Part shown: positions 2,283 through 29,856 of the stretch, piece after piece
How the letters are laid out: each line of letters starts with the position of its first letter
How positions within the stretch are numbered: position 1 is the stretch's first letter
Notes under the pieces: generated by a model
Told to the model about the DNA's origin: nothing
The model's input: the letters and a program-made list of their open reading frames with translations, nothing else
Databases searched by the model: none
Source: a virus
IMG/VR virus record: IMGVR_UViG_3300035670_000909
Span: 1 to 31,067 of that record
Direction: 5' to 3' (one strand)
Length of the DNA stretch: 31,067 bases
Translations under genes and position numbers: made by a program

Positions 2283-2290
2283 TATTTATA
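2283..2290 (+). promoter_or_regulatory. TATTTATA motif, candidate late promoter
   Basis: The octamer TATTTATA lies 12 bases before the ATG at 2303 and just after the hsp20 terminator, where a new promoter is needed. The same octamer recurs before six other genes in this window. The promoter role is inferred from recurrence and position. Confidence 0.5.
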
Positions 2291-2302
2291 TAATAAACAC
2301 TT

Positions 2303-2479
2303 ATGGCAAAATTCAGACAAAGAATTCAAGACAATAACGAAGCAATTAAACAAAGATTGCGAATTGTGCTTGATATGATGGGTGGTAATAGACCCGCATC
2401 TAACACAGAAGCAATTCGTTTGCTTAATGAGGTTAAACATTTAATAGATACTAATAACGATTTGTTAGACTTAGGATAA
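2303..2479 (+). CDS. Small conserved-looking protein, 58 aa
   Basis: This short gene starts MAKFRQRIQDNNE and ends NDLLDLG. It is mainly helical by eye and rich in charged residues (for example AIKQRLRIV and AIRLLNEVKHLID), with no membrane segment or cysteine. It begins 12 bases after a TATTTATA motif and its TAA stop at 2477-2479 is followed one base later by the ATG of the membrane protein at 2481, so the pair is probably co-translated. I do not recognise the family. The good start context, tight junction and position directly after a terminator and promoter support it as a real gene. Confidence 0.72.
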   Translation: MAKFRQRIQDNNEAIKQRLRIVLDMMGGNRPASNTEAIRLLNEVKHLIDTNNDLLDLG

Positions 2480-2480
2480 T

Positions 2481-3839
2481 ATGAAATTGAGAACCGTACT
2501 ATTAGGGTTGTCAGCTTTCTTTATCGCTGCGGCTGCAGCGTATTTTTCGGTTACAGGTTTATCTAAGTTATTTGCTGGTGCAACTACTGCTGTTATATTA
2601 ATGGCAAGTTCATTAGAATTTGGAAAGCTGATATCCGCTTCATTTTTATACGTATATTGGGAATCTATAAATAAAGTACTTCGAACCTATTTGTTAATAG
2701 GCGTGTGTGTATTAATAATCATTACATCCGCAGGTATTTATGGATTCCTAACATCCGCCTACCAAACAACAGCCGATCAATTGGATGTTATTAAGAAAAA
2801 GACAGAAGTTGTTGAATTGAAAAAACAACGATTCGAAGAACAGTTATTAGGATATACAACTGAAAGAACTTCTCTTAATCAATCTATTAGTGAACTATCC
2901 AAAGGTATTTCGAACAATGTTATACAATACACCGATGCAAATGGTAATTTGGTAACGACAACATCATCTGCTACTAGAAAAGCATTGGAAAAACAATTAG
3001 ATGATGCGAAACAACAAAGAGATGCAATTTCCTATAAAATAGAATCCCTCTCCGATTCTGTTACCAAATTAGACTTACAAGTAATAGAAATCACTTCCAA
3101 CAATGAGTTAGCAGCAGAAGTTGGACCTCTCAAATATATGGCAGAAATTACTGGTCAACCTATGAGTAGAGTTGTTAACTGGTTTGCTCTTTTAATAATC
3201 TTTGTATTCGACCCTCTTGCAGTAACATTAGTTATTGCTTTTAATACTGCCTTAAAAGTAGATAGAGGTGAATTACCAAAAACAACTTCATCTAAACCAT
3301 ATAAAGTATATGGTGATGCTGTAAATGATGCTGTAAATGATGCTGCAAATGATGGTGAACTAAAAAATAAATGGCGTAAAACGGGCATATTAGATGGTTT
3401 AAAACCAATTGATGCAAACAGACAAGCAGAGTTAGGTAAAGTATTCGAATCCGCTCCTGTACAAAAAATAGAAACAGATGAATCCGATTTTGATGAATTG
3501 GAATCATTTGATACTCCTTCAACCCAATCATTTGAAGATACCATCGCTTCGAACGAAGATACTTATGACACAGGTGAACCCACTCCTGATCCAGAATTAT
3601 CACAATTAACACAAGTTGTGGGTAAATTACCAATTGATTTAAATGAAGATGGTGAAGTTGATGGATGGGATACAAATGGTGATGGGTTGATTGATAAATT
3701 TACATATAAAGGTGCGTTGTTGGAAAATGGCAATGCACTTCCATATTATGCTAAACCAGGCTTTGATTGGAATAATAAAGCAGCTTGGATTAATGACCAA
3801 AACGCTGTTAATTATTGGATAACACATAGAAAAATTTAA
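2481..3839 (+). CDS. Multi-pass membrane coiled-coil protein with EF-hand-like loops
   Basis: This 452-residue protein has hydrophobic spans near 5-26, 30-52, 70-93 and 233-256. Between the third and fourth spans lies a coiled coil (about 100-215) rich in K, E, Q and S. After the last span a long acidic linker holds three near-copies of DAVN/DAAN. Near the C terminus two adjacent calcium-loop patterns appear, DLNEDGEVDGWD (386-397) and DTNGDGLIDKFT (397-408), which match the D-x-N-x-D-G EF-hand/dockerin-type loop. The segment after them ends WITHRKI. It should sit in the host inner membrane. A role in sensing, lysis control or superinfection is possible, but nothing in the sequence settles it. 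The ATG follows the preceding stop by one base (TAATATG). Confidence 0.8.
   Translation: MKLRTVLLGLSAFFIAAAAAYFSVTGLSKLFAGATTAVILMASSLEFGKLISASFLYVYWESINKVLRTYLLIGVCVLIIITSAGIYGFLTSAYQTTADQLDVIKKKTEVVELKKQRFEEQLLGYTTERTSLNQSISELSKGISNNVIQYTDANGNLVTTTSSATRKALEKQLDDAKQQRDAISYKIESLSDSVTKLDLQVIEITSNNELAAEVGPLKYMAEITGQPMSRVVNWFALLIIFVFDPLAVTLVIAFNTALKVDRGELPKTTSSKPYKVYGDAVNDAVNDAANDGELKNKWRKTGILDGLKPIDANRQAELGKVFESAPVQKIETDESDFDELESFDTPSTQSFEDTIASNEDTYDTGEPTPDPELSQLTQVVGKLPIDLNEDGEVDGWDTNGDGLIDKFTYKGALLENGNALPYYAKPGFDWNNKAAWINDQNAVNYWITHRKI
3315..3350 (+). repeat. Three tandem 12-bp in-frame repeats
   Basis: The unit GATGCTGTAAAT occurs twice and is followed by GATGCTGCAAAT, with a partial fourth unit starting GATG. 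It encodes the repeated tetrapeptide D-A-V/A-N in the linker of the membrane protein. Being in frame, changes in copy number would alter linker length without breaking the gene. Confidence 0.9.
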
Positions 3840-3848
3840 ATTAGTTAT

Positions 3849-4418
3849 ATGAAGAAGAAAAAAATACAAGTAATTCCACCCACAAAAAGTTACAGTGCGG
3901 AGGATGAAGTTAAGTTAAAAGATAAATTATCAAAATATTGTGAGAAACATAAACTCTATGCAGTATCCACTCAAACATTGGGGGCACCTTTTAGAGCAGT
4001 TTATATTAATACTCCTGAAACTAAACTATTACTAATTAATCCATATATCAAAACATTAGGAACGGATTTCATAAATTCATCAGAGGTATCCGAATTTGAT
4101 GACAACGGTAAGAAGGTTAGAGTGGTTAAGAGATATACACATGTAGATGTTGAAACCGATAATTTAGGATTGGTACGATTTGAAGGAGATATAAAGGAGA
4201 ATACTGCTGGTTTAAATGAATGTATTCTTGTGCAACAAATGATTGATCTTTTAAATGGTATTACGATACGAGATAAAAATATTAATCAACCGGTTGTGAA
4301 GCGTGTTAATTATGAACGCAATCAATTGGTATTGGCACGCTCTCCAAAGGGAATCGTTGAGCAAGTTAAATACAAACATATACAATCATTTGTTGATAAA
4401 GGGTACACAATACTATAA
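3849..4418 (+). CDS. Peptide deformylase-fold protein lacking the metal site
   Basis: This 189-residue protein follows the order of conserved blocks in peptide deformylase. YAVSTQTLGAPFRAVYIN (37-54) resembles the GLAAPQIG...R...V block, LINPYI (62-67) resembles the INP block, and ECILVQQMIDLLNG (124-137) aligns with the helix that normally carries HEXXH before a DHL-x-G sequence. Here the helix reads Q-M-I-D-L, so both histidines and the glutamate are gone, and the EGCLS cysteine block is replaced by NSSEVSE (76-82). It therefore should not bind the catalytic metal or remove formyl groups. Active deformylases are known auxiliary genes of marine T4-like phages, so this looks like a repurposed or decayed relative. 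It lies 9 bases after the membrane protein gene. The fold call rests on motif order only. Confidence 0.55.
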   Translation: MKKKKIQVIPPTKSYSAEDEVKLKDKLSKYCEKHKLYAVSTQTLGAPFRAVYINTPETKLLLINPYIKTLGTDFINSSEVSEFDDNGKKVRVVKRYTHVDVETDNLGLVRFEGDIKENTAGLNECILVQQMIDLLNGITIRDKNINQPVVKRVNYERNQLVLARSPKGIVEQVKYKHIQSFVDKGYTIL

Positions 4419-4422
4419 TATT

Positions 4423-4683
4423 ATGACATACATTTTAATTACATTACTTTTAATTTCAATTGGTATAAACGTTGCTTTATATATAGGAAGTAGTAGAGCA
4501 TTATCTAAAATTGAATATTATGAAAATTTTATATACTCTCGTAGAGATGCATATAAATTATTATTAGCTAACATACGCTTGTTGGATTCTAAACAAATCT
4601 TTGAAAAAGATGACGAAGTTGGTGTTACATTTACTGCAATAAAAAATGAAGTAGAAGAATTTGAAAAAATAATTGAAGAATAA
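4423..4683 (+). CDS. Small single-span membrane protein, 86 aa
   Basis: The longer reading frame opens at 4303, but the better start is the ATG at 4423, which follows the preceding stop by 4 bases in the usual TAATATTATG context and gives an immediate membrane segment. Residues about 2-21 are hydrophobic (YILITLLLISIGINVALYI). The remaining residues are charged and helical, ending in an acidic tail (EEFEKIIEE). The predicted layout is one N-terminal anchor with a cytoplasmic or periplasmic coiled coil. The last base of its TAA is the A of the sigma factor ATG, so the two are translationally linked. I do not recognise the family. Confidence 0.75.
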   Translation: MTYILITLLLISIGINVALYIGSSRALSKIEYYENFIYSRRDAYKLLLANIRLLDSKQIFEKDDEVGVTFTAIKNEVEEFEKIIEE

Positions 4684-5408
4684 TGGGAAGAACTAAAAAA
4701 GCTACTACTGCTCCAAACAAGCAGTATTTCACACAAGAAACAGAAGATGCTATCGTTGCTTATAATAAAAGCGAATCTGATAGAGAAAAAAATGCACTAT
4801 ACTCAGAATATATAAAATATCCATTTGAAAAAATTTCTGAAAATGTTTTAAACACTTATAAGTTTTCATATTTTGATGATTCTCCCGCTGATGTTAAAAG
4901 AGAAGTAGTTGCGCATATGATATCAAAAATTTATATGTATAAACCAGAGTCTGGAAAAGCATTTTCTTATTTTACTAGAATGGCTTTAAATTATTTAATA
5001 ATATTAAATAACGCAAATTATAAACGATATAAGCAGACTGATGTAATATCTGCAATGCCTGAAAATTGGGATAGTTCGGAAGATCCTGCGGTATTGGAAG
5101 CAAGTGAAACTCATTCAGAATTTAGAAATCTAATGTTACAATATTGGGATAAAAAATTGAACACTGTTTTTGACAAACAAAGAGATATACAAATAGCAGA
5201 CTCCGTTTTAGAGTTATTCAGACGAGTTGATTATATTGAAAACTTCAACAAGAAGAATTTGTATTTGTTAGTAAGAGAAATGACTGGGTATAAAACACAT
5301 TATATTACAAAAGTTATTTCTACTATGAAAAAACACCAGGATATAATTTTAGAGGAATACTTAAATTCTGGAGATATTACAATAGAGGATGAGATTTTTT
5401 TTAAATAG
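4683..5408 (+). CDS. gp55: Late-transcription sigma factor, T4 gp55-like
   Basis: This 241-residue protein resembles the gp55 family, reduced sigma-70 factors that direct host RNA polymerase to phage late promoters with the sliding clamp and gp33. The similarity lies in the sigma region 2 helices: an opening YFTQETEDAIVAYN, then VKREVVAHMISKIYMY, then GKAFSYFTRMALNYLI and NNANYKRYKQ at about 90-120. T4 gp55 is about 185 residues, so this one is somewhat longer. The final residues IEDEIFFK are acidic and aromatic, like the C-terminal clamp-binding motif of T4 gp55, though this is an inference. It begins by a one-base overlap (TAATG) with the preceding gene. A TATTTATA motif follows its stop directly. 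Its presence fits the repeated upstream octamers as its targets. Confidence 0.72.
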   Translation: MGRTKKATTAPNKQYFTQETEDAIVAYNKSESDREKNALYSEYIKYPFEKISENVLNTYKFSYFDDSPADVKREVVAHMISKIYMYKPESGKAFSYFTRMALNYLIILNNANYKRYKQTDVISAMPENWDSSEDPAVLEASETHSEFRNLMLQYWDKKLNTVFDKQRDIQIADSVLELFRRVDYIENFNKKNLYLLVREMTGYKTHYITKVISTMKKHQDIILEEYLNSGDITIEDEIFFK

Positions 5409-5416
5409 TATTTATA
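5409..5416 (+). promoter_or_regulatory. TATTTATA motif, candidate late promoter with minimal leader
   Basis: The octamer begins on the base after the sigma factor stop codon and ends only 4 bases before the ATG at 5421. If it acts as a -10 element, transcription would start at or next to the ATG, giving a leaderless or nearly leaderless baseplate mRNA. Confidence 0.5.
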
Positions 5417-5420
5417 ATAT

Positions 5421-5876: not shown

Positions 5877-7131
5877 ATATACAACTGAGCATGCTAGAAC
5901 ATCCACTCAAACGAATACGACTTCAAAACCCGTTTCGATTTTTGCAGTTGTAAACAAAGTATATTATGTATATACCGAAGATGAATCAGGAAAATCTGTT
6001 AAAATTCCTGGTACAATTGAAGTATCTCCCATTGGTTCTGGGTATCAATCTGCTATTATTACTGCATATCCTTTAGATGAATACAACTTAACAATGCCAT
6101 TGCCAAATGAGATTGTTGAAGTTTTTATGCATTTGAATCCTAAATTTTATAGGAGACCTAGTGTGAGTGCAACAATTAATTATTCTGGATTTAATATTGA
6201 TGGTTCTTCACCTGATAATATAACTCCTATACAATCTAAAGCGGATTATAAAAATCAATTAGTAACTAAAACTGGTGCGTCATCTAAAGAACGAAAGTTT
6301 GGTGATACGTTCACACCATCTGATAACGTACACCGATTAAAAATATATGATGGTGATACTATTATTCAGTCTAGATTTGGTCAATCTATTAGATTTAGTG
6401 GGTATAATAATGTAGAAGGTAAAGAACACCCTACTATAATAATTCGGAATAAAGAGTCCGCAGATAGTGCTAATAAACCATTATCACATACTACGGAAGA
6501 GGATATAAATAAAGATGGTTCTACTTTACTAATTGGTAGTGGCAAATATACATCTAATTTTCTTCCTGGTACAGTAAACAATGGTAAGAGTAATTTTAAA
6601 TTAAAAGTATATGAACCACAAAAATCTAGAAATGCTTATAATTTTTCATCCAATAAAACTAAATATGGATTTGAAGAGTATCCTAGAAAACTTGATGGTA
6701 ACCAAATAATAATAACAAGTGATAGATTAATTTTTTCTAGTCGATTGAATGAGATTATTTTTTGGTCTAAAGGCCAATACGGTGTAATTACTGATTCGGT
6801 TGCATCGATTGATGCGGAAAAAGGTATTAATTTAATCTCACATAATGGTGATATTGATTTAGAAGGTAATAATATAAACTTTAATACTAAGAACGGAACT
6901 TTAAATCTTGGTACTGGTAAAGGTAAAACATTAACACCCACAGTTGACGGTAAAGCATTAGTTGAATTACTTGGTAAAGTAATAGATGAGATGGAAAATC
7001 TTTGTTTGGGTGGAGTACTAACTCCATCTGGACCAGCGAGTGGTATAAATCCTGCTAATAAAGCTAGGTTAGCAAATATAAGAAACACGTTAACTTCATT
7101 ACTATCACAAACCGTTTGGATAGCAAAATAA
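5854..7131 (+). CDS. gp5: Baseplate hub/spike protein, gp5-like
   Basis: This 425-residue protein resembles the gp5 family of T4-like marine phages, the central spike that pierces the outer membrane. Residues about 25-100 look like an OB-fold domain (PGTIEVSPIGSGYQSAIITA, then MPLPNEIVEVFM). A family hallmark follows at about 170-200: DTIIQSRFGQSIRFSGYN, then PTIIIRN. The region from about 285 to 365 has short beta repeats (IIITSDRLIFSS, GVITDSVASIDAEKGINLIS, DIDLEGNNINFNTKNGTLNL), consistent with a trimeric beta-helical needle. I see no lysozyme domain, which T4 gp5 carries between these parts, so cell-wall cleavage must be supplied elsewhere or is absent. The start overlaps the previous gene by 23 bases. 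Confidence 0.75.
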   Translation: MVERFLPKYTTEHARTSTQTNTTSKPVSIFAVVNKVYYVYTEDESGKSVKIPGTIEVSPIGSGYQSAIITAYPLDEYNLTMPLPNEIVEVFMHLNPKFYRRPSVSATINYSGFNIDGSSPDNITPIQSKADYKNQLVTKTGASSKERKFGDTFTPSDNVHRLKIYDGDTIIQSRFGQSIRFSGYNNVEGKEHPTIIIRNKESADSANKPLSHTTEEDINKDGSTLLIGSGKYTSNFLPGTVNNGKSNFKLKVYEPQKSRNAYNFSSNKTKYGFEEYPRKLDGNQIIITSDRLIFSSRLNEIIFWSKGQYGVITDSVASIDAEKGINLISHNGDIDLEGNNINFNTKNGTLNLGTGKGKTLTPTVDGKALVELLGKVIDEMENLCLGGVLTPSGPASGINPANKARLANIRNTLTSLLSQTVWIAK

Positions 7132-7132
7132 T

Positions 7133-7741: not shown

Positions 7742-7761
7742 CCCAAAATCGTTAATTATCA

Positions 7762-7769
7762 TATTTATA
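7762..7769 (+). promoter_or_regulatory. TATTTATA motif, candidate late promoter
   Basis: The octamer lies in the 43-base gap before 7785 and ends 15 bases before that ATG. It would drive the block containing gp25 and gp6. The sequence continues ATAA, as at several sister sites. Confidence 0.5.
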
Positions 7770-7784
7770 ATAAATTAATACACT

Positions 7785-8255: not shown

Positions 8256-8258
8256 TAT

Positions 8259-17800: not shown

Positions 17801-19572
17801 GTTCATTATATTTACCTACAAATACCTCACTACCAAATGTATTTAATGGAGCAGGTGTATTATATATTGGTTCGGATACTACTGGTAGAGCCGGTATAAG
17901 TGGTTCGGTGGATGAATTCAGATTGTGGAAAACTGCATTGAGTGAATCTGCTATAACTTCACATGCATTAAATCCAGATGTTATCTACGGTAATAACATC
18001 TATTCAACTACGGAAGATTTGTTTGTACGGTTAGATTTTGAATATGTGAAAGAAAGAATATCTGACCCATATATTAAAAACGTATCACCTGCTATAATTT
18101 ACACCGACGCAACCGCTAGTAACGGAACTTATTTATATTCAAAAGGATATACTGGATATGCAACTGCTAGTGTTAACACCATAGCAACGGATTATCCATA
18201 TCAATATGAAGTTTACACTAGAATGGTTAGTGCAGAGATGCCTTCTATTGGGTTCGTTGGACAAGATAAAGTTCGATTGGAAGATATTGAATTAGTATCT
18301 CCGTTATCATATCGTCAACGTTCAACTGTTAAATCGTTGGATAGAGCGCCTGCTGATTCGAACAAATTAGGATTGTTTTTTTCTCCAACAAAAGAATTAA
18401 ACCTTGACATATTAAAATCATTGGGGTCAATCAATATAGGTGATTATATTGGTGATTGGCAAGATGAATATGGTACTGATAGATATGCGGATTTGGATGT
18501 ATTACGAAATTATTATTTTCAACGAATAAACCTTAATATTGATGAATATATTAGATTAATAAAATCAATTGATAAGTCTTTATTTGATATGTTATATCAG
18601 GTTATTCCTGAAAGAGCTAATGTAGTTAGTGGTATATTGTTAGAACCTTCTTTATTAGAAAGAAGTAAGATTAAAATAAACAAGCCAACTGCGAATAATA
18701 TTTATCATACCGCTTCAATAAATTTAAACAATAATGCGATAATTGAAGCTTCAATTGATACCATTAATGCAACTGTTGATACAAATGTAAGCAAAGATTT
18801 GGTTGGTACTAATGATACTTATGAAACTTTAATTGTATTAGATGATACATTTGAAATTGAATCTACTACCATATATTATACAAGCAGTATTTCTTTAATC
18901 GATACATCTTTTATAAATGGGGAAGTAAGTACAATTGAGGCGTACATCGATGCTGGTTTATATGAACCTACCATATTAACACAACATCAACAGGAATCAT
19001 CATATCAGTCCGCTGGTAACGATAAAGATTCTCCTTCTGAAAGTGGGTTTGGTATAATGGGAGAAAATGGTGCGGTAGATAGAACCTATTTTGATAATAG
19101 TGGATTTTTAGTACTTTCTGAAAGAATGAATGGTTATATATTAACTATTAAATATACTCGTAAAGTTCCTGATACCGATTTAAATGGTAATACAGTTTAT
19201 GAGAATGTGGCAACTTTTTCTAAAAAATTAGTGTTAGTTGATCCAATTGACCCATTGGCATTGAACGTATTTAAATCTCCTAAACAACACTCATTTTATA
19301 CAAATATCTTAGCCGCGTTGGGTACATACCCATATGATAATGGTGTAGTTACTGCAATTGAAGTATTTAATGGATACACAACTGGACATTATAGATATAC
19401 TAAGGATACCACAAAAGGTATGGAAAATAGTTTTTATAATGGTTCAAAACAAACCTCTCGTACTACATTGGACAACGCACCTGCTGTTGAAGTATTCTCA
19501 ACTAATCCTAACAGATTAAAGGTAACTGATACAGGACGTGGAAGTGGGGAGCCCATCTTGGAAGTTGACTAA
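14869..19572 (+). CDS. Very large tail/baseplate protein with Fn3-like, tail-protein-I-like and LamG-like regions
   Basis: This 1567-residue protein is the largest in the window. Residues about 37-125 are an Fn3-like domain with C71 and C76 in CPIDGC, paralogous to the one at 12815. Beta-rich segments follow to about 620. Residues about 670-820 resemble the P2 gpI/tail-protein-I type core: NHLPEYLKVGEIGQNSEEF, then WDPKSPFNG and EVWRRILNNLPYLLKYKG, TRRAINAILACYGVP. About 845-1030 looks like a LamG/concanavalin-type lectin fold (YVALPWLSGSYNPNSVQIRF, GAGVLYIGSDTTGRAGISGS, VDEFRLWKTALSESAI). The remainder (1030-1567) is beta-rich. By its place after gp6 it may fill the role of gp7, the wedge linker, with added glycan-binding domains. 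The gp7 equivalence is a hypothesis. Confidence 0.7.
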   Translation: MADKIIKYFVNDTLVFDVIAVPFKANSDAAGEDFLPINDVTVTQITENSATINWSTARGTTAIVSFLDNVCPIDGCQITVDEYKAQHSVTVTGLLPNTKYKFFIKGQTKGLVNFQSIETSFNTIRSVVIPTPSIELPKIVNGLASSYTWNIEKDNSFTITFNVNETTDYVKYYYPNQPNSDENYGIRVQVPADNKKVTIKLENPGIVGIYDLTLIPGNNTIKDGEERTVQINVVKEFYYGEPDVTEIFYNKTIKEADLKPLDFYFDFNIRSVNSEGINVYLGNDVATPITVLSTNDNKSSLNLYAKDLYQLYKERFNETQDTYTLTFSFHPFFNGVTGKIFGRLEPITVTVTKTKYILTKNEVLDALSSAFKDLFSGDSTKKDYEDKIIFEDDKYLYYRIKYQNSPFDSFVINNIAEDTITYSLTGSSDPKVVKTEFIVNPITGNTERKQKTPYSTLVLRLLEPLPAEIVENTQVWIAKQIIPTVVEDIVITDDDDNICTPLRPNFSIDVLEDSGYEYLEQIVASGSLTSANIVNKYLGKNEFSLEDLNITYTSGSNVTGSEFIVFKNFVNYSSAKTRIENYQYKLETIEFWENKIFTTTYSASIASTSSFAMATSQSYLDKIQTLKNGFDGFEKTLYDDYSITGSNNTFFEVQSFYAEEYDKYNKNYLVNHLPEYLKVGEIGQNSEEFLVFVQMIGNHFDIIWSYINGINRTKRITHTSENGIADKFLHTMLESMGWDPKSPFNGLQLWKEAFGLNQDGSTPTNSNVLGVNIPSTYTPFEAKNEVWRRILNNLPYLLKYKGTRRAINAILACYGVPASLLTVVEFGGPSPNPENLYKFTYEDRSAALNLSTSEYVALPWLSGSYNPNSVQIRFATDYKPTTASTGSQLLRMIGGGSNYWKINLIPTYTGSYGNVLFEIGNGVTTGSILITGSVLFDDYYKNITLQQETVTSASVDYDRFTLYVKEALDDRIIMNQSGSLYLPTNTSLPNVFNGAGVLYIGSDTTGRAGISGSVDEFRLWKTALSESAITSHALNPDVIYGNNIYSTTEDLFVRLDFEYVKERISDPYIKNVSPAIIYTDATASNGTYLYSKGYTGYATASVNTIATDYPYQYEVYTRMVSAEMPSIGFVGQDKVRLEDIELVSPLSYRQRSTVKSLDRAPADSNKLGLFFSPTKELNLDILKSLGSINIGDYIGDWQDEYGTDRYADLDVLRNYYFQRINLNIDEYIRLIKSIDKSLFDMLYQVIPERANVVSGILLEPSLLERSKIKINKPTANNIYHTASINLNNNAIIEASIDTINATVDTNVSKDLVGTNDTYETLIVLDDTFEIESTTIYYTSSISLIDTSFINGEVSTIEAYIDAGLYEPTILTQHQQESSYQSAGNDKDSPSESGFGIMGENGAVDRTYFDNSGFLVLSERMNGYILTIKYTRKVPDTDLNGNTVYENVATFSKKLVLVDPIDPLALNVFKSPKQHSFYTNILAALGTYPYDNGVVTAIEVFNGYTTGHYRYTKDTTKGMENSFYNGSKQTSRTTLDNAPAVEVFSTNPNRLKVTDTGRGSGEPILEVD

Positions 19573-19611: not shown

Positions 19612-19619
19612 TATTTATA
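19612..19619 (+). promoter_or_regulatory. TATTTATA motif, candidate late promoter
   Basis: The octamer lies in the 72-base gap before the gene at 19645 and ends 25 bases before its ATG, the longest spacing of the set. It separates the long baseplate block from the following virion genes. Confidence 0.5.
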
Positions 19620-21605: not shown

Positions 21606-21613
21606 TATTTATA
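21606..21613 (+). promoter_or_regulatory. TATTTATA motif, candidate late promoter with minimal leader
   Basis: The octamer ends 5 bases before the ATG at 21619, directly after a strong terminator. A new promoter is required here to express the following genes, which makes this one of the better supported sites. Confidence 0.55.
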
Positions 21614-21618: not shown

Positions 21619-23064
21619 ATGTTCAAAGCAATCCCATCTTCTGATATATCGATTAGACCGTTTAAAGCGTATAAAAACTATACGTTTGATGAATCTACTT
21701 TACCAATACATCCTGTAAGAAATTTAACTGGTTCATATGATAGTAACATATCTAATGTGTTGAATATAAATGGTATAGATGTGAGTGAGTTCACATTGAA
21801 CAAATCTATACGTTCATTATATTACAACCGTTCTCCTAAAGAAATAGGAGTAGTTGTCAATTGGGATGTTAGAAAACATGCTTCTAAAAAGATATATAAA
21901 TATGAGGTTCATATTAATGGAAAGGGTGGTAGTACAATTTATAATTATTATTTTGATTCATATGCAAATGAATGGGTAGATGAATTTTCTCAATTTTTAA
22001 ATGAAAATGGATACTATGTAAATAGTAATGGGTTAATATTGGTTAGAAATTTTTCGGATATAACCACTCTATTAGGAGAAATGAAAAATGTTGGTTCTAC
22101 ACAAGAACGGTTTATAGGTGATAGATTTTTAATGTGGAGTATTCCTAGAAACTATATAGGAGAACGAATTAAACCAACATCATTTATTATTTCTGATTAT
22201 GGATATACTAAAAAATCCATGTCTAACAAAGACAAAAGTCTTAAAATTGTCGATGATGGGCATGGTAATCTAATAGAAAGTGAAAGAGAATATTTGGGTA
22301 TAGTTGGTGTAGATTTTAATGAAGATACTAATTATTGTTTAATAAAATCAAATGATGGTGAACTATATAATACAACTGTAATAAATTTTGATTTCGGAGA
22401 AGAAACTGCTGGGATAGAAGAAATAAATTTAACATATGAAACTTATAATGATATACAAATAGATGTTGATCAATTTGATGCTCGTAGTGAATACGCCATA
22501 TCTATTTCAAATATGATTTTACCATATCATATACACAATTCGCCAAAAGTTTTGGGAAATATATTTTATTCAAATGGTATAATAACATTGACACATGCCG
22601 TTTCTATAAATGAAGATTGTGGGTGTGGTGATGACAATGCGTTTTTTGGTGGGGAAGGATATGTTATTAATTATAAATCAACGAAAACTATATATGAAAA
22701 TGAAATATTTTTGAATATTCTACCAACCGATTTTAATGTATCAACGAATCCAACTGCAACGACTTGGAATGAGGGAGCATATTATGTTAATAGATATATT
22801 GATATTGATTCTACGGATGGTAGTGATATATTAGATTTAGATTTTAGAATTGTTTCATCATACGATGGTGTTACAAAAATGGGATTTGGTGAATATGAGA
22901 ATAGAACAGAATCCGACCCAACTGGTAGTTACCTAGCTCCATATATAACTTCAATTGGATTGTATGATGATGAATATAATTTAGTAGCCGTAGCAAAAGT
23001 TCCAGCAAAACAAAAAAAGTTACCAGATTACCCTATAAACTTTATAGTTAGGTTTGATACCTAA
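21619..23064 (+). CDS. Virion structural protein, paralogue with an extra central segment, 481 aa
   Basis: This 481-residue protein and the next gene product are paralogues along most of their lengths. Both begin MFK-x-I-x-x-SDISIRPFK-x-YK, contain ERFIGDRF or ERYIGDRF, share the segment KSTKTIYENE, and end with DPTGSYLAPYIT, IGLYD, LVAVAKVP and PINFIVRFDT. This copy has about 85 extra residues after DDGHGNL (coding near 22250-22545), and a cysteine pair CGCGD at C334 and C336 that the shorter copy lacks. The proteins are probably fibre or baseplate decoration components. The ATG follows a TATTTATA motif by 5 bases. Confidence 0.75.
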   Translation: MFKAIPSSDISIRPFKAYKNYTFDESTLPIHPVRNLTGSYDSNISNVLNINGIDVSEFTLNKSIRSLYYNRSPKEIGVVVNWDVRKHASKKIYKYEVHINGKGGSTIYNYYFDSYANEWVDEFSQFLNENGYYVNSNGLILVRNFSDITTLLGEMKNVGSTQERFIGDRFLMWSIPRNYIGERIKPTSFIISDYGYTKKSMSNKDKSLKIVDDGHGNLIESEREYLGIVGVDFNEDTNYCLIKSNDGELYNTTVINFDFGEETAGIEEINLTYETYNDIQIDVDQFDARSEYAISISNMILPYHIHNSPKVLGNIFYSNGIITLTHAVSINEDCGCGDDNAFFGGEGYVINYKSTKTIYENEIFLNILPTDFNVSTNPTATTWNEGAYYVNRYIDIDSTDGSDILDLDFRIVSSYDGVTKMGFGEYENRTESDPTGSYLAPYITSIGLYDDEYNLVAVAKVPAKQKKLPDYPINFIVRFDT

Positions 23065-23079: not shown

Positions 23080-23087
23080 TATATATA
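23080..23087 (+). promoter_or_regulatory. Variant promoter-like motif TATATATA
   Basis: The sequence GAATATATATATCTGTATG here lines up base for base with GAATATTTATAGGTGTATG before the paralogue at 21619. The match suggests the regulatory region was copied with the gene. The octamer ends 5 bases before the ATG at 23093. Confidence 0.4.
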
Positions 23088-23092: not shown

Positions 23093-24277
23093 ATGTTTAA
23101 GCCTATTCGTAAATCAGACATTAGTATCAGACCTTTCAAGGTTTATAAATCTTGGGAATTTGATTCTGGATCTATTTCTATTAATGTTATAAGAAATTTA
23201 AGTGGTAGTTTCGAAAATTTTGAAACAACATTTGTTACAGGTAGTAACTATTCTTTCAATGAATATGCATTAAATAAATCCATACGATCACTATATTACA
23301 GAAATGTTCCTAGATTAATTGGTAGTGTTACCAACTGGGATTATTATAAGCATTCTGCAAAAAAACAATATTCGTATTTGGTGACGAGTAGTAACGGATT
23401 GGTAGAATATAAATATTATTACGATAACTCATCTAAATCGTATATCAATGATTTTCAAACTTTTTTGGATACGAATAAATATACTGTCAATTCATCCGGA
23501 GAAATTATTGCTGGATCATATATGGATGTTACCAAAATATATGGGATGGTAAAAAACTTTGGTTCAACTGAGGAACGCTATATTGGTGATAGATTTTTTT
23601 TATTAGGCGTACCACAAAAATATATTGGTGAAGGTATTAAACCCGGATCAGTAATACTTACTGACTATTTTACAACATCTAGTTTTATTGATGATGGGTA
23701 TGGTAACATGGTAAATTCCGTTGATACATCTTCCATAGTTGGAAATGTATTTTATGGACATGGAATTGTTACTATAACAAAGAATACAGAATTGCCTTCT
23801 GATGTATATTATAATTTAGGAACTAAGAACTTTTCGTTGCAGATCAAATCAACTAAAACGATATATGAGAATGAAGTATTCATTCAAGTATCTCCATCCG
23901 AATTTAATATATCAACAAATCCAACTTCAATTACATATTATAATGGATACTCATACGTAAATAGTTTAATACAAGTTGATGCAAGTGGATCAGGAAATCA
24001 AAGTAAAACACTTGATTTCAGATATCGTTCATCTCATTTGTTTACATATCCTACTGTATACGGACCGGCTGGAACAGCAGTAACTAGATCTATTGGATTT
24101 AGTGATTATGAATATAGTTCATCAATTGACCCAACTGGCAGTTATCTGGCACCGTACATTACCACTATTGGGTTATATGATACCGAATATAATTTGGTTG
24201 CAGTTGCTAAAGTTCCAATGAAACCTAAGAGTATTCCCGATTACCCTATAAATTTTATAGTTAGATTTGATACTTAA
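23093..24277 (+). CDS. Virion structural protein, shorter paralogue of the 21619 product, 394 aa
   Basis: This protein starts MFKPIRKSDISIRPFKVYKS and shares with its neighbour ALNKSIRSLYYRNVP, STEERYIGDRFFLLGVPQKY, KSTKTIYENEVF and FNISTNPT. It ends with DPTGSYLAPYITTIGLYD, then LVAVAKVP and PINFIVRFDT. It lacks the roughly 85-residue central segment and the CGCGD motif of the longer copy and instead runs from DDGYGNM straight into VGNVFYGHGIVTIT. The two genes lie head to tail 28 bases apart, which points to tandem duplication followed by divergence. A likely role is a variable virion surface protein. Confidence 0.75.
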   Translation: MFKPIRKSDISIRPFKVYKSWEFDSGSISINVIRNLSGSFENFETTFVTGSNYSFNEYALNKSIRSLYYRNVPRLIGSVTNWDYYKHSAKKQYSYLVTSSNGLVEYKYYYDNSSKSYINDFQTFLDTNKYTVNSSGEIIAGSYMDVTKIYGMVKNFGSTEERYIGDRFFLLGVPQKYIGEGIKPGSVILTDYFTTSSFIDDGYGNMVNSVDTSSIVGNVFYGHGIVTITKNTELPSDVYYNLGTKNFSLQIKSTKTIYENEVFIQVSPSEFNISTNPTSITYYNGYSYVNSLIQVDASGSGNQSKTLDFRYRSSHLFTYPTVYGPAGTAVTRSIGFSDYEYSSSIDPTGSYLAPYITTIGLYDTEYNLVAVAKVPMKPKSIPDYPINFIVRFDT

Positions 24278-24291
24278 ACGGAAAAGTTTTA

Positions 24292-24299
24292 TATTTATT
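24292..24299 (+). promoter_or_regulatory. Near-consensus motif TATTTATT
   Basis: One base differs from the TATTTATA octamer. It lies 16 bases before the ATG at 24316, in the 38-base gap after the paralogue pair. Because this exact variant also occurs inside genes it is weaker than the perfect sites. Confidence 0.3.
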
Positions 24300-24315
24300 A
24301 GTAAATAGTAATAAT

Positions 24316-24645: not shown

Positions 24646-24666
24646 TTTTTTAATAAAAGGTTACAT

Positions 24667-25080
24667 ATGTGGTTATATAAGGAAAGCATCATTGATGATA
24701 TACAACAATTTCCAGAAGGTATATTTGGGTTTGTGTATAGAATTCATCACCTACCAACTAATAAATTTTATATTGGTAGAAAACAGTTAATATCGAATAA
24801 AACATTACCACCACTTAAGGGTAAAAAACGAAAACGTAAGACTCAAAAGGAGAGTAATTGGAAAACATATTACAGTTCACATCCAGAAATTAATAATATA
24901 GTTGCAGAAGGTAGGGAGGATGAATTTGTTAGAGAAATTTTAGAATTTGCATTTTCTCCGAAACATTTGACATATTTGGAAACGAGATATTTATTCTCAG
25001 AAAGAGTATTGGAAAACAGTGATAAATATTGGAATGACAATATACTTGGCAAATTCTTTAGAAAAGATGTTTTAAAATAA
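24667..25080 (+). CDS. GIY-YIG nuclease-like protein
   Basis: This 137-residue protein shows the two tyrosine blocks of GIY-YIG nucleases, GFVYRIHH (21-28) and FYIGRKQL (34-41), followed by a very basic loop KGKKRKRK, then the segment KESNWKTYYSS, and YLETRYLF (103-110) with the likely catalytic glutamate E105. These enzymes cut DNA with one metal ion; phage relatives include Seg-type free-standing homing endonucleases, while others act as ordinary phage genes. The first tyrosine block reads FVY, not GIY, a common substitution. No intron or recognition site can be identified. The placement among virion genes is typical of a mobile endonuclease, but a fixed phage function is equally possible. 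Confidence 0.65.
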   Translation: MWLYKESIIDDIQQFPEGIFGFVYRIHHLPTNKFYIGRKQLISNKTLPPLKGKKRKRKTQKESNWKTYYSSHPEINNIVAEGREDEFVREILEFAFSPKHLTYLETRYLFSERVLENSDKYWNDNILGKFFRKDVLK

Positions 25081-25085
25081 TAATT

Positions 25086-25406: not shown

Positions 25407-25415
25407 AAAAATCAA

Positions 25416-25423
25416 TATTTATA
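25416..25423 (+). promoter_or_regulatory. TATTTATA motif, candidate late promoter
   Basis: The octamer is followed by TAATATA and lies 17 bases before the ATG at 25441. The extended match to the site at 2283 (TATTTATATAATA) is 13 bases long. Confidence 0.5.
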
Positions 25424-25440
25424 TAATATAAAGTAGAAAT

Positions 25441-26001
25441 ATGTATCCATTATTTATAGACAAGAACGAAGAATTTAACTGCAAGATTACAATCGAAGGA
25501 GCAGATAATGGTACTGCAAATCCACGTCTTTTACTAAAGACTAAAAAATGGGATTTAATGTTCGAAGGAGTTGTAAAGAATGGACAGTGTATTATACCAT
25601 TAAAAAAACTATCCAGTTTGATAGGAGAGGGTGAAACCGGTGAAATTAAATTGGAAGTTATTGTAGATGATACTCTATTAGTACCTTGGGAAAATACGTT
25701 TGAAGCAAAAGTTTCCAAAAAAGTAAAAGTAGATGTATCTGAATCATACACTTCTACTAAACCTAAAATAGTAGTAGAAGTTGCACCCGCTAAAAAACAA
25801 CAATACATATCTCCTACTGTGAATGGGTTTTCTTCAATATTAAAAGAACATAATATAAATTCTGCAAACGCTAAATTTAACACTAAAAAAATAAATAAAT
25901 TATTTAAAGAATATATAAGTTTAACATCTGAAAAAGACGCTGCTAAACTTATGAACGGTTATAAAACATTTATAAAAACTGCATTAATTAATAGCAAATA
26001 A
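25441..26001 (+). CDS. Unrecognised structural or assembly protein, 186 aa
   Basis: The first 105 residues look like two beta-sandwich-like halves (FNCKITIEGADNG, RLLLKTKKWDLMFEGVVKNG, CIIPLKKLSSLIGEGETGE, IKLEVIVDDTLLVPWENTF). A lysine/proline-rich hinge (STKPKIVVEVAPAKKQQ) leads to a helical C-terminal region (FSSILKEHNINSANAKFN, KLFKEYISLTSEKDAAKL). It immediately precedes the 463-residue virion protein by 3 bases and shares its promoter-like site, so the two may work together. I do not recognise the family. Confidence 0.7.
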   Translation: MYPLFIDKNEEFNCKITIEGADNGTANPRLLLKTKKWDLMFEGVVKNGQCIIPLKKLSSLIGEGETGEIKLEVIVDDTLLVPWENTFEAKVSKKVKVDVSESYTSTKPKIVVEVAPAKKQQYISPTVNGFSSILKEHNINSANAKFNTKKINKLFKEYISLTSEKDAAKLMNGYKTFIKTALINSK

Positions 26002-26004
26002 TAT

Positions 26005-27396
26005 ATGGCAAAAATTGTTGACCCAGATGAATTAACCCAAGGTATAGAGATTCAATTTATAACCGGCTCAAATCCTAAAAAAATTAAATTTTTTGAAGCG
26101 GGTAATTTTACACAAAGCGCAGGTGTATCCATGCAAACACTTTACTCTTTTTGTAAAGAAGAGTGGAAGAACGATTCAAATCTAATTAAGTTCCCGTTCC
26201 CGATGATTTCAATTACATCGGAACAGTTTGAATTTATTAGTGATTGGGATTTAAGTGGAAGTTTTGAAAAAAATGCTATTAGAGATGGTGGATGGGCACG
26301 AAGAAGTGGATCGGGTGTAGTGTTGGAAGAATGGATGAACGTTACCACACTTGGTGCATTCGTAACAGGATCTGACCAAGCATATTATCAACAATCTGCA
26401 TCTGCCGCTCCGGTTAACTTTACATTCCCTGGAGAAGTAAATGCGGGTGTACAACTTTATGAATCAGGTGCATATGATTATAGAGATTATTATAAGATTT
26501 TCCTTCGTGAGCAAGGTAAAACATATGACTCATATGACTTACCTACTGAACAGAACATTCCTTTCTTAACATATCGTAAGTATGCGATGCCGTTGGCAAA
26601 CAGTAATGATTTGAAAATTGCAGTTGCGGATATTGGCATTGATGCAAACTCTGATAATGTTGCAGATGTTGCTCCATATTCTGGTATGAGTATAACATAC
26701 TTTACCACATCACAACTTAGAACAATTGGTGGTAACCCATATTATTTCAACGTAATTATTGATGGTAATCAGGGTACTGCTGAACAAATTTATGAATTTG
26801 TACAATGGTCATTACGTAGACCTACTGATATTGCGACTGGCGCGGAGGTTGTTAGAGGTGATACTGCGGATGAATTGCTTATCTTCATTGGTAACACATT
26901 AAGAACCTTAAAAACTGATTCATGGGGGCCTACATATATTGATGATTTCCAGACCGTTGATACAAACCGATTGGAATTTACATCTGGATCAAGTATTATT
27001 ACATTCCCATTCGTTGCTGCTGGTAACTTGGTGTTTAACGATAACTTACAGAACGATGCTGATGCAAGATACTTTGTATTCTTTACAAATGATGATGCAG
27101 GTGATAACACTGGCAGAGATTTTGGTACGCAAGATGCAATCATTATAAATGATAATAATGGCTTCCCTATAACAGGAAGTGTAGCAACTTCTGCTTCATT
27201 AGGATTTGACTATGATTATGATAACAATATCCAAAGAGGAACAGATTCATCTGGATCAAACGTACCATATACGGCGGTTGCATTAGGATTGAGTACTGCT
27301 CAATATGTGGTAACTGTGGGAACACTTACTAGAAGTACTTCTAACATTATAAGCTTTGTGGCTGCGTTGGAAAGAAATTATAGTAACCCTATATAA
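26005..27396 (+). CDS. Virion structural protein, 463 aa
   Basis: The protein has aromatic-rich beta segments and many G/S/T/N turns. It begins MAKIVDPDELTQGIEIQF, has KFPFPMISITSEQFEF, RDYYKIFLREQGKTY, FFTNDDAGDNTGRDFGTQDA and ends in ALERNYSNPI. A stretch EQIYEFVQWSLRRPTDI suggests a central helical piece. I recall similar proteins as common in uncultured marine phages but cannot assign a role. The typical tail-sheath landmarks (N-terminal strand extensions and a C-terminal handshake region) were looked for and not recognised. Fibre, baseplate or decoration protein are all open. Confidence 0.7.
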   Translation: MAKIVDPDELTQGIEIQFITGSNPKKIKFFEAGNFTQSAGVSMQTLYSFCKEEWKNDSNLIKFPFPMISITSEQFEFISDWDLSGSFEKNAIRDGGWARRSGSGVVLEEWMNVTTLGAFVTGSDQAYYQQSASAAPVNFTFPGEVNAGVQLYESGAYDYRDYYKIFLREQGKTYDSYDLPTEQNIPFLTYRKYAMPLANSNDLKIAVADIGIDANSDNVADVAPYSGMSITYFTTSQLRTIGGNPYYFNVIIDGNQGTAEQIYEFVQWSLRRPTDIATGAEVVRGDTADELLIFIGNTLRTLKTDSWGPTYIDDFQTVDTNRLEFTSGSSIITFPFVAAGNLVFNDNLQNDADARYFVFFTNDDAGDNTGRDFGTQDAIIINDNNGFPITGSVATSASLGFDYDYDNNIQRGTDSSGSNVPYTAVALGLSTAQYVVTVGTLTRSTSNIISFVAALERNYSNPI

Positions 27397-27414
27397 TAGT
27401 TAATTAAATTTGTT

Positions 27415-27861
27415 ATGGTAAAAGTAGCAGGAATATGGGAACAAGGTTGGAATACTCCCTGGTTAGAATTTGATTTGTGGGAATATCCATTACACGATTT
27501 TGGAGTAGATGAATTTTATATGACTCCAATTTCTGGTATTGCAAAAGGATTTTCTTTTTTAAAAGAAAAAACTGATATACAAGAAGTATTGAACGAAAAT
27601 CCTGATTTGACAGTTGTATGGATAGATGAGAGGGGTACTACAAAACTTAAAGATTTCGTTCATCCTGAAAACGCACTATATATTACAGGAAAAACAACCA
27701 GTAGACCAATGGTAACGTTTGGGCAACCAAACCATCTATCTGTTCAGATAGAAACTAAACCAGATGGTTCTACTCAAGGTGGGTTATGGAGTCATCAAGC
27801 CATAACACTTGTATTATACGATAGAATAAAGAAGAGTAATGGCGATATTAGTAACGGATAA
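27415..27861 (+). CDS. Possible SPOUT (TrmH-like) methyltransferase-fold protein
   Basis: This 148-residue protein starts VKVAGIWEQGWNTPWLEFDL, then PLHDFGVDEFYMTP, and has DLTVVWIDERGT, FVHPENALYITGKTT (81-95), SVQIET and GLWSHQAITLVLYDR (123-137). The H-P-E-x-A-x-Y-x-x-G block and the closing S-x-Q-A...LVLYD resemble the knotted C-terminal motifs of SpoU/TrmH RNA ribose methyltransferases, which bind S-adenosylmethionine. The catalytic N-terminal arginine motif of true TrmH enzymes is not clear. It could modify tRNA or rRNA during infection, or be a structural descendant. It overlaps the next gene by 23 bases. Confidence 0.45.
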   Translation: MVKVAGIWEQGWNTPWLEFDLWEYPLHDFGVDEFYMTPISGIAKGFSFLKEKTDIQEVLNENPDLTVVWIDERGTTKLKDFVHPENALYITGKTTSRPMVTFGQPNHLSVQIETKPDGSTQGGLWSHQAITLVLYDRIKKSNGDISNG

Positions 27862-29554
27862 TAGAACTGTAATATCAGAAGCAGATGCTACAACAGGATG
27901 GACAAGTACTTCTACATTAACTGCTAATACAGTAGAACCTACTCCCGTTGAAGCTACATCTCGTCTTGATCTTACTGTTAGTAACGCTACACAAAACTCT
28001 TATTTTACATTACCCGCCGCAGTTAATTTAACCGGTAGTATAGTTTATTTTTGGTTTTCACATAGAGCTGAATTTGATACAACACAGAATATTGGAGTTG
28101 GCATACAATTAGGAGATGGAACAAACCGAGCCGCATTTGGAATTATGGGGTCTGATGCTGTTGCTTTTTCACATTTTGATGGACCTGTTACGTGGCAATG
28201 TTTGGCGTTAGATGTTGCTAATAGACAACGATATCCATCTGTTAATATTACTGGTACTTCTCAATCACTAAACGTTGGAGGAATTACGCAAATTGGCCTT
28301 TATATGAAAACCATTGTAAAGGCGGTCGGTGGCGCAGTTAATTGTTTTATTGATATCGGACGATATACAAGTTCATCTATCGCAAATGGTACTGCGTTAA
28401 CTATAACCAGCGGTTCATCTTCTGATCCAGGTTCATTTCAGCAAATTGCATTAGCAGATAGAAGAACGGGTAGTTTACAGGCACATGGTGTAGTACGGCA
28501 GTTAGGATCCGGTTTATTCGGTGTACAGGGAGGATTAACGTTCGGTAATGCAACTGGTACAGACTCTTCTTGGTTTGAGGATAAAAACGTATCAGTTTCT
28601 TTTGAAAATAGAAAATTTACAACAGATAAATATAAACTAATCATAGTTGATAATGGAGTTGGTACAACCACTTTTAAATTAGGTACAAAAGTTGGAACGG
28701 GAGTTTCTGCATTAGGTGCAGATGGATGTTCATTCGTAGCAGGATCGGGAGTAGGATGTTTATTCGATTCACAGTCAGATATAGATGTTACAGATGTGTT
28801 TATATATGGATCAACCTTTACTGGATTTACAGAAGGTATATTTTTAAATAGTAATCAAGAATTCATCAATAACACTGTTTCACAAGGAGGTACATTATTT
28901 CCAGGGACAGGATCTGGTGCGATTTTAGTAAATTCATCTTTTTCTAATTTATTAACATCGCGAGCTAGTGCATCTGTTTATTGGAACACACAGTCAGATA
29001 CATCTGGTAAATTAGATGGTTGTAATTTTACAATGGGTGTAACAGGTTCGCATGCTATCGAATTGGGGCCAAATACTCCATCTACTATTGACTTTAATAG
29101 TATTACATTTACTTCTTATGAGGGAACGCCTGGAACAAATTTAGTTTCTAATTCAGGAAATACTGGATCAGCAGTTTATAACAATTCTGGAAAAGCAATA
29201 ACTATTAACATTTCACAAGGAACAGTTCCTGCGGTAAGAAACGGAGCGGGTGCAACTACTACTATTGTAAATGCGATACAGGTAACATTAACTGGACTAA
29301 AAGATAATACAGAAGTTAGAGTATTAGAATTTGGTGCGAATCCACCGGTGGAATTGGCAGGAACCGAGAATGCTACTGATGGAACGATTGATAATAGAAC
29401 ATTTTCATTTTCATTAACTGCTGGTACAATTGTAACAATAGTTGTACATAGTTTAGCATATGAGTATATTTCGATATCACCTTATACAGTACCATCCGCA
29501 CCGTCGGAGTTACCTATTCAGCAGAGAACAGATAGAAATTATATAAATTCATAA
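27839..29554 (+). CDS. Probable tail fibre or fibre-like beta-helical protein, 571 aa
   Basis: The composition (G, S, T, N and V) and repeated short strands (NVGGITQIGLYMKTIVK, SIANGTALTITSGSSSD, SGAILVNSSFSNLL, TSASVYWNTQ-like turns) suggest a beta-helix or stacked beta-sandwich fibre. The N-terminal region, with VNLTGSIVYFWFSHRAEF, may be a lectin-like beta-sandwich. The C-terminal part, after TIVNAIQVTLTGLKDNTEV, resembles a small carboxy-terminal sandwich and ends with a proline-rich tail (PYTVPSAPSELPIQQR). No membrane segment is seen. The ATG overlaps the preceding gene by 23 bases. The fibre role is inferred from composition and context. Confidence 0.6.
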   Translation: MAILVTDNRTVISEADATTGWTSTSTLTANTVEPTPVEATSRLDLTVSNATQNSYFTLPAAVNLTGSIVYFWFSHRAEFDTTQNIGVGIQLGDGTNRAAFGIMGSDAVAFSHFDGPVTWQCLALDVANRQRYPSVNITGTSQSLNVGGITQIGLYMKTIVKAVGGAVNCFIDIGRYTSSSIANGTALTITSGSSSDPGSFQQIALADRRTGSLQAHGVVRQLGSGLFGVQGGLTFGNATGTDSSWFEDKNVSVSFENRKFTTDKYKLIIVDNGVGTTTFKLGTKVGTGVSALGADGCSFVAGSGVGCLFDSQSDIDVTDVFIYGSTFTGFTEGIFLNSNQEFINNTVSQGGTLFPGTGSGAILVNSSFSNLLTSRASASVYWNTQSDTSGKLDGCNFTMGVTGSHAIELGPNTPSTIDFNSITFTSYEGTPGTNLVSNSGNTGSAVYNNSGKAITINISQGTVPAVRNGAGATTTIVNAIQVTLTGLKDNTEVRVLEFGANPPVELAGTENATDGTIDNRTFSFSLTAGTIVTIVVHSLAYEYISISPYTVPSAPSELPIQQRTDRNYINS

Positions 29555-29558
29555 TATT

Positions 29559-29777
29559 ATGAGAAAGTATATATTAGATACGGTTAGTGGCATGGAATAT
29601 GATTCGTTTAAGCAAATATTAGTAAACCATAATATTGAAAAAATAGAATTAATTCCTATTATTGGTGCAATTTATGATATAGGTGGAGTTTCATTAAGAT
29701 GTAGTGAACATAAAAGAGGTATGGCGGTTTTGAAAAATACCAATATTGTAGTTAAGTTAATAGAGGTTAACGCATAA
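29559..29777 (+). CDS. Unrecognised small protein, 72 aa
   Basis: The protein starts MRKYILDTVSGMEYDSFKQI and contains a mixed alpha/beta pattern with IEKIELIPIIGAIYDIGGVS and LRCSEHKRGMAVLKNTNIVV. One cysteine lies near residue 48. It has the standard stop-start junction (TAATATTATG) after the fibre-like gene and ends before the gap leading to the next TATTTATA motif. I do not recognise its family. Confidence 0.65.
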   Translation: MRKYILDTVSGMEYDSFKQILVNHNIEKIELIPIIGAIYDIGGVSLRCSEHKRGMAVLKNTNIVVKLIEVNA

Positions 29778-29807
29778 TAGGGTATACTTGATATTTTAAA
29801 AAAAAGT

Positions 29808-29849
29808 ATCGATTTATTTGGAAAATATTTGTTATTTTAATAAATTGAT
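29808..29849. repeat. Imperfect inverted repeat before the 29849 promoter motif
   Basis: ATCGATTTATT (29808-29818) and AATAAATTGAT (29839-29849) are inverted copies with one mismatch in 11, separated by 20 bases. The distal arm touches the first base of the TATTTATA motif at 29849. It may be an operator-like site, or chance in AT-rich sequence. Confidence 0.3.
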
Positions 29850-29856
29850 ATTTATA
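29849..29856 (+). promoter_or_regulatory. TATTTATA motif, candidate late promoter
   Basis: The octamer lies in the 97-base gap before 29875 and ends 18 bases before that ATG. This gap is the longest gene-free stretch in the window. Confidence 0.5.

Follow-up and report, generated by a model that had tools for sequence, protein, structure and literature searches.

Results

An octamer recurs ahead of gene blocks in the window

The virus record IMGVR_UViG_3300035670_000909 was analyzed from position 1 to 31,067, a stretch of 31,067 nt referred to below as the window. Its gene blocks are preceded by an octamer, TATTTATA, a candidate late promoter element, and one of its genes, P0002, encodes a protein resembling gp55, the sigma factor of T4 late promoters. 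A first-pass annotation made from the letters of the sequence had listed seven exact copies of TATTTATA, each in a short noncoding gap preceding a + strand gene, and two variants; all nine are present as described. Its tally of a single copy inside a gene (18130) misses a second + strand copy at 25451, and the T4 late promoter word TATAAATA, noted at 6504 only, occurs four times (2666, 6504, 21895, and 23408), always within genes. The sites and the sigma gene are as follows.

2283..2290, + strand, candidate late promoter element TATTTATA, following hairpin-like sequence and a T-run
4683..5408, + strand, gene for P0002, a putative gp55-like late sigma factor of 241 aa with 61 IMG/VR relatives
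5409..5416, + strand, candidate element TATTTATA, 4 nt ahead of the ATG of gene 5421
7762..7769, + strand, candidate element TATTTATA ahead of gene 7785 and baseplate wedge genes
18130..18137, + strand, TATTTATA copy inside a 1567-aa gene, probably incidental
19612..19619, + strand, candidate element TATTTATA ahead of gene 19645
21606..21613, + strand, candidate element TATTTATA, 5 nt ahead of the gene 21619 ATG, with GC-rich hairpin-like sequence and a T-run upstream
23080..23087, + strand, variant TATATATA ahead of gene 23093
24292..24299, + strand, variant TATTTATT ahead of gene 24316
25416..25423, + strand, candidate element TATTTATA ahead of gene 25441
25451..25458, + strand, TATTTATA copy ten bases into open reading frame (ORF) 25441, probably incidental
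29849..29856, + strand, candidate element TATTTATA ahead of gene 29875 and virion structural gene 30087

The site at 2283 heads the operon that contains the sigma gene. Genes 8259 and 8690 match baseplate wedge PHROGs and gene 30087 matches phrog_1645, a virion structural protein (E 2.4e-40); most of the scanned window proteins have no clear family match.

The 755 nt of noncoding + strand sequence hold seven copies of TATTTATA against 0.53–0.64 expected, and 0 of 2000 Markov-simulated sets, of either order, reached seven. Some 8-mer or other attains seven copies in 1.9–3.8% of simulated sets, and the significance from the window alone is moderate after correction for the choice of word; the signal is decisive because relatives show enrichment and conservation. 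It is restricted to the noncoding + strand, where the reverse complement TATAAATA has no copy. Enrichment across the whole window was considered and rejected (13 copies on both strands against 10.7 expected).

The octamer is conserved and enriched in relatives

Conservation was followed in the upstream regions of homologous genes. For six motif-led window genes, the exact octamer is found in 54 of 73 homologous upstreams and the degenerate form TAyTTATw in 70, compared with 2 and 4 of 236 for 16 other window genes; protein identity among the motif-led homologues is as low as 29%. Gene by gene, TATTTATA is kept in 12/12 distinct upstreams for gene 2303, 18/28 for gene 5421 (TAyTTATw in 25/28), 20/24 for gene 7785 (TAyTTATw in 24/24), and 4/4 for gene 19645. 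The two upstreams homologous to gene 21619 both carry TATTTATT and neither the exact word; the three for gene 23093 all fit TAyTTATw, none with the exact word, and two of them belong to the same genes as those for 21619. No homologous upstream for genes 24316, 25441, and 29875 was present in the comparison set.

Relatives were identified through P0002: 61 IMG/VR loci and six records in a phage collection, comprising four for Flavobacterium phage immuto (37% identity), Microcystis phage Mel-JY01 (37%), and the uncultured phage LR756508 (44%). Genes were called with a simple longest-ORF, ATG-only caller of our own, except where annotation is cited. Gaps shorter than 8, 12, or 15 nt (depending on the script), gaps at piece or contig ends, genes sharing their first 30 bases, and near-identical sites (124 reduced to 106 for the logo) were dropped before counting.

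An unbiased 8-mer count over 285 distinct gaps of the 61 loci is topped by two families, TTTTCGTATATTTG-like words and ATATTTATA, with terminator-like and other words below them. The clade set, 765 distinct gaps from the window, the 61 loci, and G001, G002, G003, and G007, contains 131 copies of TATTTATA against 24.2 expected. Observed and expected gap counts are 26 and 4.5 for G001, 30 and 3.9 for G002, 13 and 2.4 for G003, 6 and 1.6 for G007, 25 and 3.3 for immuto, and 15 and 3.0 for Mel-JY01. Orientation follows the genes: the coding strand carries the 131 copies, the opposite strand 15 (read there as TATAAATA), and 10 of these 15 gaps are divergent.

The same pipeline recovers TATAAATA in control phages, with 18 copies observed against 2.0 expected in T4, 6 against 0.7 in Syn33, 5 against 0.8 in leB, 7 against 1.4 in VH7D, and 16 against 1.7 in S-CAM7. 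Aeh1 and a Kuttervirus give CTAAATA words; the Aeh1 variant is the published one, according to the available text of its source (PMC2988020). Gap word counts for phiM19 and Cr30 yield no clear late word. T4 gaps also hold seven copies of TATTTATA (2.1 expected), all in divergent gaps, and these are therefore TATAAATA for the opposite gene.

The sites stand mainly ahead of virion genes

Immuto is an annotated, cultured phage, and there TATTTATA lies directly ahead of the terminase, gp20, tail sheath, tail completion, baseplate hub, and tape measure genes. The octamer occupies 17 of 33 gaps in structural zones, which we drew from the annotation, versus 8 of 75 gaps elsewhere (Fisher p 1.0e-5). 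A cluster of small ORFs in immuto has a different word, TTTAGGTA, in 15 of 30 gaps.

First genes after late sites, as we call sites of the octamer, were scanned in G001, G002, G003, and G007. The 59 genes include portal, tail tube, baseplate, tail fibre, and head-tail adaptor families; 45 first genes scanned after a second, early word (below) include primase, DNA polymerase, processivity factor, RNA ligase, nucleases, and GroES (family lists give the 25 most frequent of 67 and of 50, respectively). Late sites stand mainly ahead of virion genes, with exceptions, as is characteristic of T4-type promoters.

The octamer leads operons and is rare within them. It lies within 60 nt upstream of 6 of 832 operon-internal genes in the clade, compared with 120 of 645 gap-led genes; the corresponding fractions are 0/99 and 21/92 in immuto, 0/13 and 6/13 in the window, and, for T4 with its own word, 0/112 and 21/121.

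Late sites have no −35 signal and favor certain distances to the start codon

In the clade, A stands immediately before 116 of 126 gap copies (giving ATATTTATA) but before 23 of 82 in-gene copies from distinct genes. Of 23 immuto copies, 14 have A at this position and 9 have C. At the eighth base, clade gaps have A 131, T 38, C 6, and G 7 times. The logo of 106 late sites contains no −35 signal. Runs of six T lie within 30 nt upstream of 47 of 123 late sites; the figure is 15 of 81 for early sites and 76 of 508 for control points.

Distances to the ATG were counted after dropping sites more than 60 nt away (7 of 131, leaving 124), with expectations taken from 121 other A/T 8-mers. They range from 3 to about 60 nt. 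Spacings of 15–26 nt account for 84 of the 124 sites (35.4 expected); none is found at 7–10 nt (8.8 expected) or 0–2 nt (12.0 expected), and 11 sites lie at exactly 3 nt (2.4 expected). The 3-nt sites belong to L001, L046, L050, L104, L106, L111, L119, L124, L127, L128, and L129; five of the eleven read TATTTATA-GGT-ATG, and the window sites at 5409 and 21606 have 4 and 5 nt. It is possible that late mRNAs from sites adjoining the ATG are leaderless.

A second, host-type promoter class precedes replication genes

Replication genes in the 61 loci and in G001, G002, G003, and G007 are preceded by another promoter class, in which TTTGG and TCGTAT[AC]TT are separated by 16 nt. TTTGG occurs 8–28 nt upstream of 52 of 81 early sites, always at 16 nt, versus 5 of 123 late sites, and no gap matches both the early and the late pattern. 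The early class fits the Bacteroidetes consensus, given in the available text as TTTG at −33 and TAnnTTTG at −7 (PMC6847099, PMC9723704), and resembles the promoter of the Bacteroidetes primary sigma, likely the host type. Late sites do not conform to this sigma-A pattern: they have neither the −33 box nor the G of TTTG.

Positions 1–45 of the window, ahead of its first gene, resemble the early class (TTTTTTCCGTACTTTAC, cf. TTTTCGTATCTTTAC in relatives). Mel-JY01 (W02, PP395634.1; e.g. L077–L084) has nine TATATTTG words against 1.7 expected, several of them after CTTGCATA or TTTGGA. These words resemble Bacteroidetes promoters, and the Mel-JY01 sigma groups with those of immuto and the clade; its recorded host, Microcystis elabens, may be wrong.

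P0002 resembles gp55 and lacks one base-pocket residue

The AlphaFold2 model of P0002, built from 28 aligned sequences, has a mean predicted local distance difference test score (pLDDT) of 77.5 and a predicted template modeling score (pTM) of 0.46. Its top VIA match is T4 gp55 in the open complex (7d7c_F; Z 10.0, root-mean-square deviation (rmsd) 5.2, 122 residues), tied with other sigma chains, and a Z of about 10 is not decisive for a helical protein. Alignment by hhalign of 28 group proteins to seven T4-type gp55s gives a probability of 55.7 (E 1.2e-4, 99 columns, residues 20–119). Foldseek returns no E-value below 0.001 for the full model or for its C-terminal domain. Fold and profile match thus lend the gp55-like sigma of the first-pass annotation moderate, not conclusive, support.

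T4 gp55 accommodates flipped bases in pockets formed by Tyr97 (−12), Asn13 and His95 (−9), and Thr99 (−8), as described in the available text of the structure paper (PMC7892883). We aligned 18 proteins, eight of this group and ten other gp55s. At the Asn13 column, the ten other gp55s all have Asn, whereas the eight group proteins have Thr, Gly, or Asp. The Tyr97 equivalent is kept in 8/8, and the Thr99 equivalent is Thr in five, Ser in two, and Gln in one. P0002 combines a sigma region 2 fold with the −12 and −8 pockets. The eight group sigmas form one side of a branch with 100/100 support. A change of His95 to Phe was rejected as the specificity determinant: Syn33 and S-CAM7, which use TATAAATA, also have Phe.

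Residues 136–241 of P0002 are strongly conserved among 25 sequences, and their model consists of four helices (mean pLDDT 81.5, pTM 0.75). The best matches of this C-terminal domain include sigma region 4 chains (6ono_D; Z 5.5, rmsd 3.6, 70 residues), several of which lie at Z about 4–5.5, in a tie with domains of the signal recognition particle. Should the modeled domain be region 4-like, it could take the role that gp33 has in T4 at the beta flap.

The survey of promoters upstream of the sigma gene covered 35 rows, some of them near copies: the window plus 34 of the 61 loci. It extended over at most 6 kb, and less at contig ends. A TATTTATA site lies 2.3–2.7 kb upstream of the sigma gene in 18 rows, including the window, and nine of these have an early-type site further upstream within the examined stretch. 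Ten rows of a second sub-clade have an early-type site 0.9–1.6 kb upstream and no late site in the stretch. The remaining seven comprise L049, L044, and L050, with late sites at other distances, and L038, L039, L046, and L056, with sites of neither type. The sigma gene seems to be self-activated in one sub-clade and under a host-type promoter in another; read-through would be one way to the first sigma molecules in the self-activating sub-clade.

Other features of the window and of sigma relatives

A peptide deformylase-like gene (3849–4418; PF01327, E 2.5e-6) lies in the same gene run upstream of the sigma gene. Genes 21619–23064 and 23093–24277 match the same homologous places in L137 and L122 and have similar end sequences, so they are likely a duplication. 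Positions 24667–25080 match two homing endonuclease PHROGs and one called NAD synthetase, a name that is applied in immuto as well and that seems doubtful. Scans of the window with Rfam (gathering threshold) and for tRNAs gave no matches. A P0002 scan of cellular genome contigs yields at least 589 candidate stretches, and at least three are confirmed. These sigma relatives, L250, L251, and L252, come from contigs assigned to bins of Candidatus Nitrosopelagicus, bacterium TMED198, and Saprospiraceae; the first of these bins, which is archaeal, probably contains a stray phage contig.

Discussion

A probable late promoter element with changed recognition

We consider it highly likely that, in a phage clade probably infecting Bacteroidetes, TATTTATA serves as the −10-like box of T4-type late promoters. 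The late promoter family with changed recognition envisaged in the first-pass annotation finds strong support in gap enrichment in the relatives and immuto, the mostly virion genes behind the sites, the gene-following orientation, and the lack of a −35 element. The gp55-like protein would be the reader of TATTTATA, and the comparison suggests that the late transcription factor of these aquatic viruses changed its DNA specificity.

In the mechanism that we propose, the gp55-like sigma would associate late in infection with the core RNA polymerase of the host, and the complex would melt the promoter at the octamer, with RNA starting a few bases downstream. Head, tail, baseplate, and probably lysis operons would be switched on in this way; early and replication genes would be driven by the separate host-type promoter.

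Several observations weigh against this reading. Some copies lie outside late genes, among them those in the eight non-structural immuto gaps, and some first genes after late sites belong to nuclease, exonuclease, cytidyltransferase, 2OG-Fe oxygenase, and starvation-inducible regulator families. The 3-nt sites leave too little room before the ATG for transcription to begin as in T4, unless RNA starts closer to the octamer or the ATG is miscalled. LR756508 (L064/W03, LR756508.1; 480 kb) is enriched for neither exact word (TATTTATA 4 against 1.7 expected, TATAAATA 3 against 2.5). Words picked by viewing its top word list include TCTATTTA (8 against 1.3) and TCTACTTA (7 against 0.6), both fitting a TAyTTA core and not TAAATA, and TCTATGTA (5 against 0.3), which does not fit the core.

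Other such points concern the sigma. Searches of PHROGs, Pfam (at cut-off), and PDB sequences do not identify P0002 as gp55. The profile alignment begins at residue 20 and does not include the Asn13 column, which is less sure than the Tyr97 column because it lies outside that alignment. The link from sigma to motif is suggestive only because it reflects one evolutionary event with no independent repeat; moreover, L044 is among the eight group sigmas without an enrichment count of its own, LR756508 is placed by weaker words, and phiM19, Cr30, and KMI9, among the ten other gp55s, have no determined late word. The clamp family PF02916, an insensitive probe, matched only T4 among 12 records and missed Syn33; one early-class gene matches phrog_223, a DNA polymerase processivity factor. 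Finally, where RNA starts, that these genes are expressed late, which phylum serves as host, and any requirement for a sliding clamp or for gp33 are matters of inference, and for start and timing this too counts against the proposal.

Alternative readings of the octamer

The octamer might be a late promoter element read by some other phage factor, either a second sigma or an activator that modifies the host sigma. Room for such a factor exists in that the case for the gp55-like protein is built on its fold, a profile match, and co-occurrence, the last partly by construction because the loci were found with P0002. Nevertheless, the phages with the TT word fall in one gp55 group, and adenine is retained in the octamer at −12 and −8, two of the positions whose bases are flipped by T4 gp55 (PMC7892883). 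We give this alternative a slim chance.

It is very unlikely that the sites are modified promoters of the host primary sigma, with TTTG at −33 and TAnnTTTG at −7. In favor of this reading, TATATTTATA contains TAnnTTTA, 69 of 126 clade gap copies have TA directly upstream, and the early promoters of the same clade fit TAnnTTTG as given in the available part of the consensus paper (PMC6847099). However, the near-invariant host G at −5 is replaced by A here, the position at which the eighth-base counts above favor A so strongly, and the scarcity of upstream TTTGG at late sites, together with the lack of gaps fitting both classes, separates the two promoter types.

An mRNA element for translation or processing, the alternative offered by the first-pass annotation, is hardly tenable: the octamer lies near start codons and no Shine-Dalgarno sites are evident by eye in the window upstreams, but it is disfavored because it is rare before operon-internal genes, its distance to the ATG varies widely, and six-T runs precede it far more often than control points.

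Significance

A lineage with TT at −10/−9, set beside phages with TAAATA, supplies a naturally occurring pair of late sigmas that would differ in specificity. The T4 structure 7D7C names a pocket that may explain this specificity, and a few residue swaps could probe the minimal sigma. The octamer also provides an annotation rule for late operons of large phages probably infecting Bacteroidetes, in which most virion genes lack family matches.

A fuller scenario, in which a whole gp55 lineage lost the conserved Asn contacting base −9 and thereby switched specificity from A-10A-9 to T-10T-9, gained or kept a region 4-like domain that perhaps replaces gp33, moved the sigma operon between a late, self-activating promoter and a host-type one in its sub-clades, and makes some late mRNAs leaderless, is tentative, and we think it rather unlikely to hold in all its parts.

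Comparison with T4 and other late promoters

TATTTATA was not found as a phage late promoter among the papers listed, judged by title and opening of the abstract, in the literature searched, whose coverage excludes most subscription journals; the available part of the T4 structure paper contains the letters of TATTTATA as the template strand of its DNA (PMC7892883). The T4 late promoter is TATAAATA and gp55-dependent, with relatives described in KVP40, 44RR, S-PM2, and Aeh1 in the available text of two papers (PMC2988020, PMC2984593). The late sites share with it an 8-bp TATA-like box, the absence of a conserved −35 element, a position before virion operons, and a gp55-type sigma encoded in the same genome, the last with moderate support.

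The word itself differs. T4-type promoters have TATAAATA or published −13/−12 variants that keep TAAATA, and here TATTTATA stands instead; because the behavior is T4-like and yet the defining word is absent, we class the element as a variant rather than as T4-type proper. The T4 box reads T-13 A-12 T-11 A-10 A-9 A-8 T-7 A-6, whereas the late sites have TT at −10/−9 and keep A-12 and A-8. The element is better read as TATAAATA with AA at −10/−9 changed to TT than as the reverse complement of the T4 word, the description given in the first-pass annotation. T4, Syn33, S-CAM7, leB, VH7D, Aeh1, and the Kuttervirus all keep TAAATA, and variation among them is at −13/−12; here, the change is at −10/−9.

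T4 gp55 (PDB 7D7C) and the window protein both have the region 2 fold, whereas the window protein is 56 residues longer (241 versus 185 aa) and carries the conserved C-terminal four-helix domain, and the equivalent of T4 gp55 Asn13 is lost in its group.

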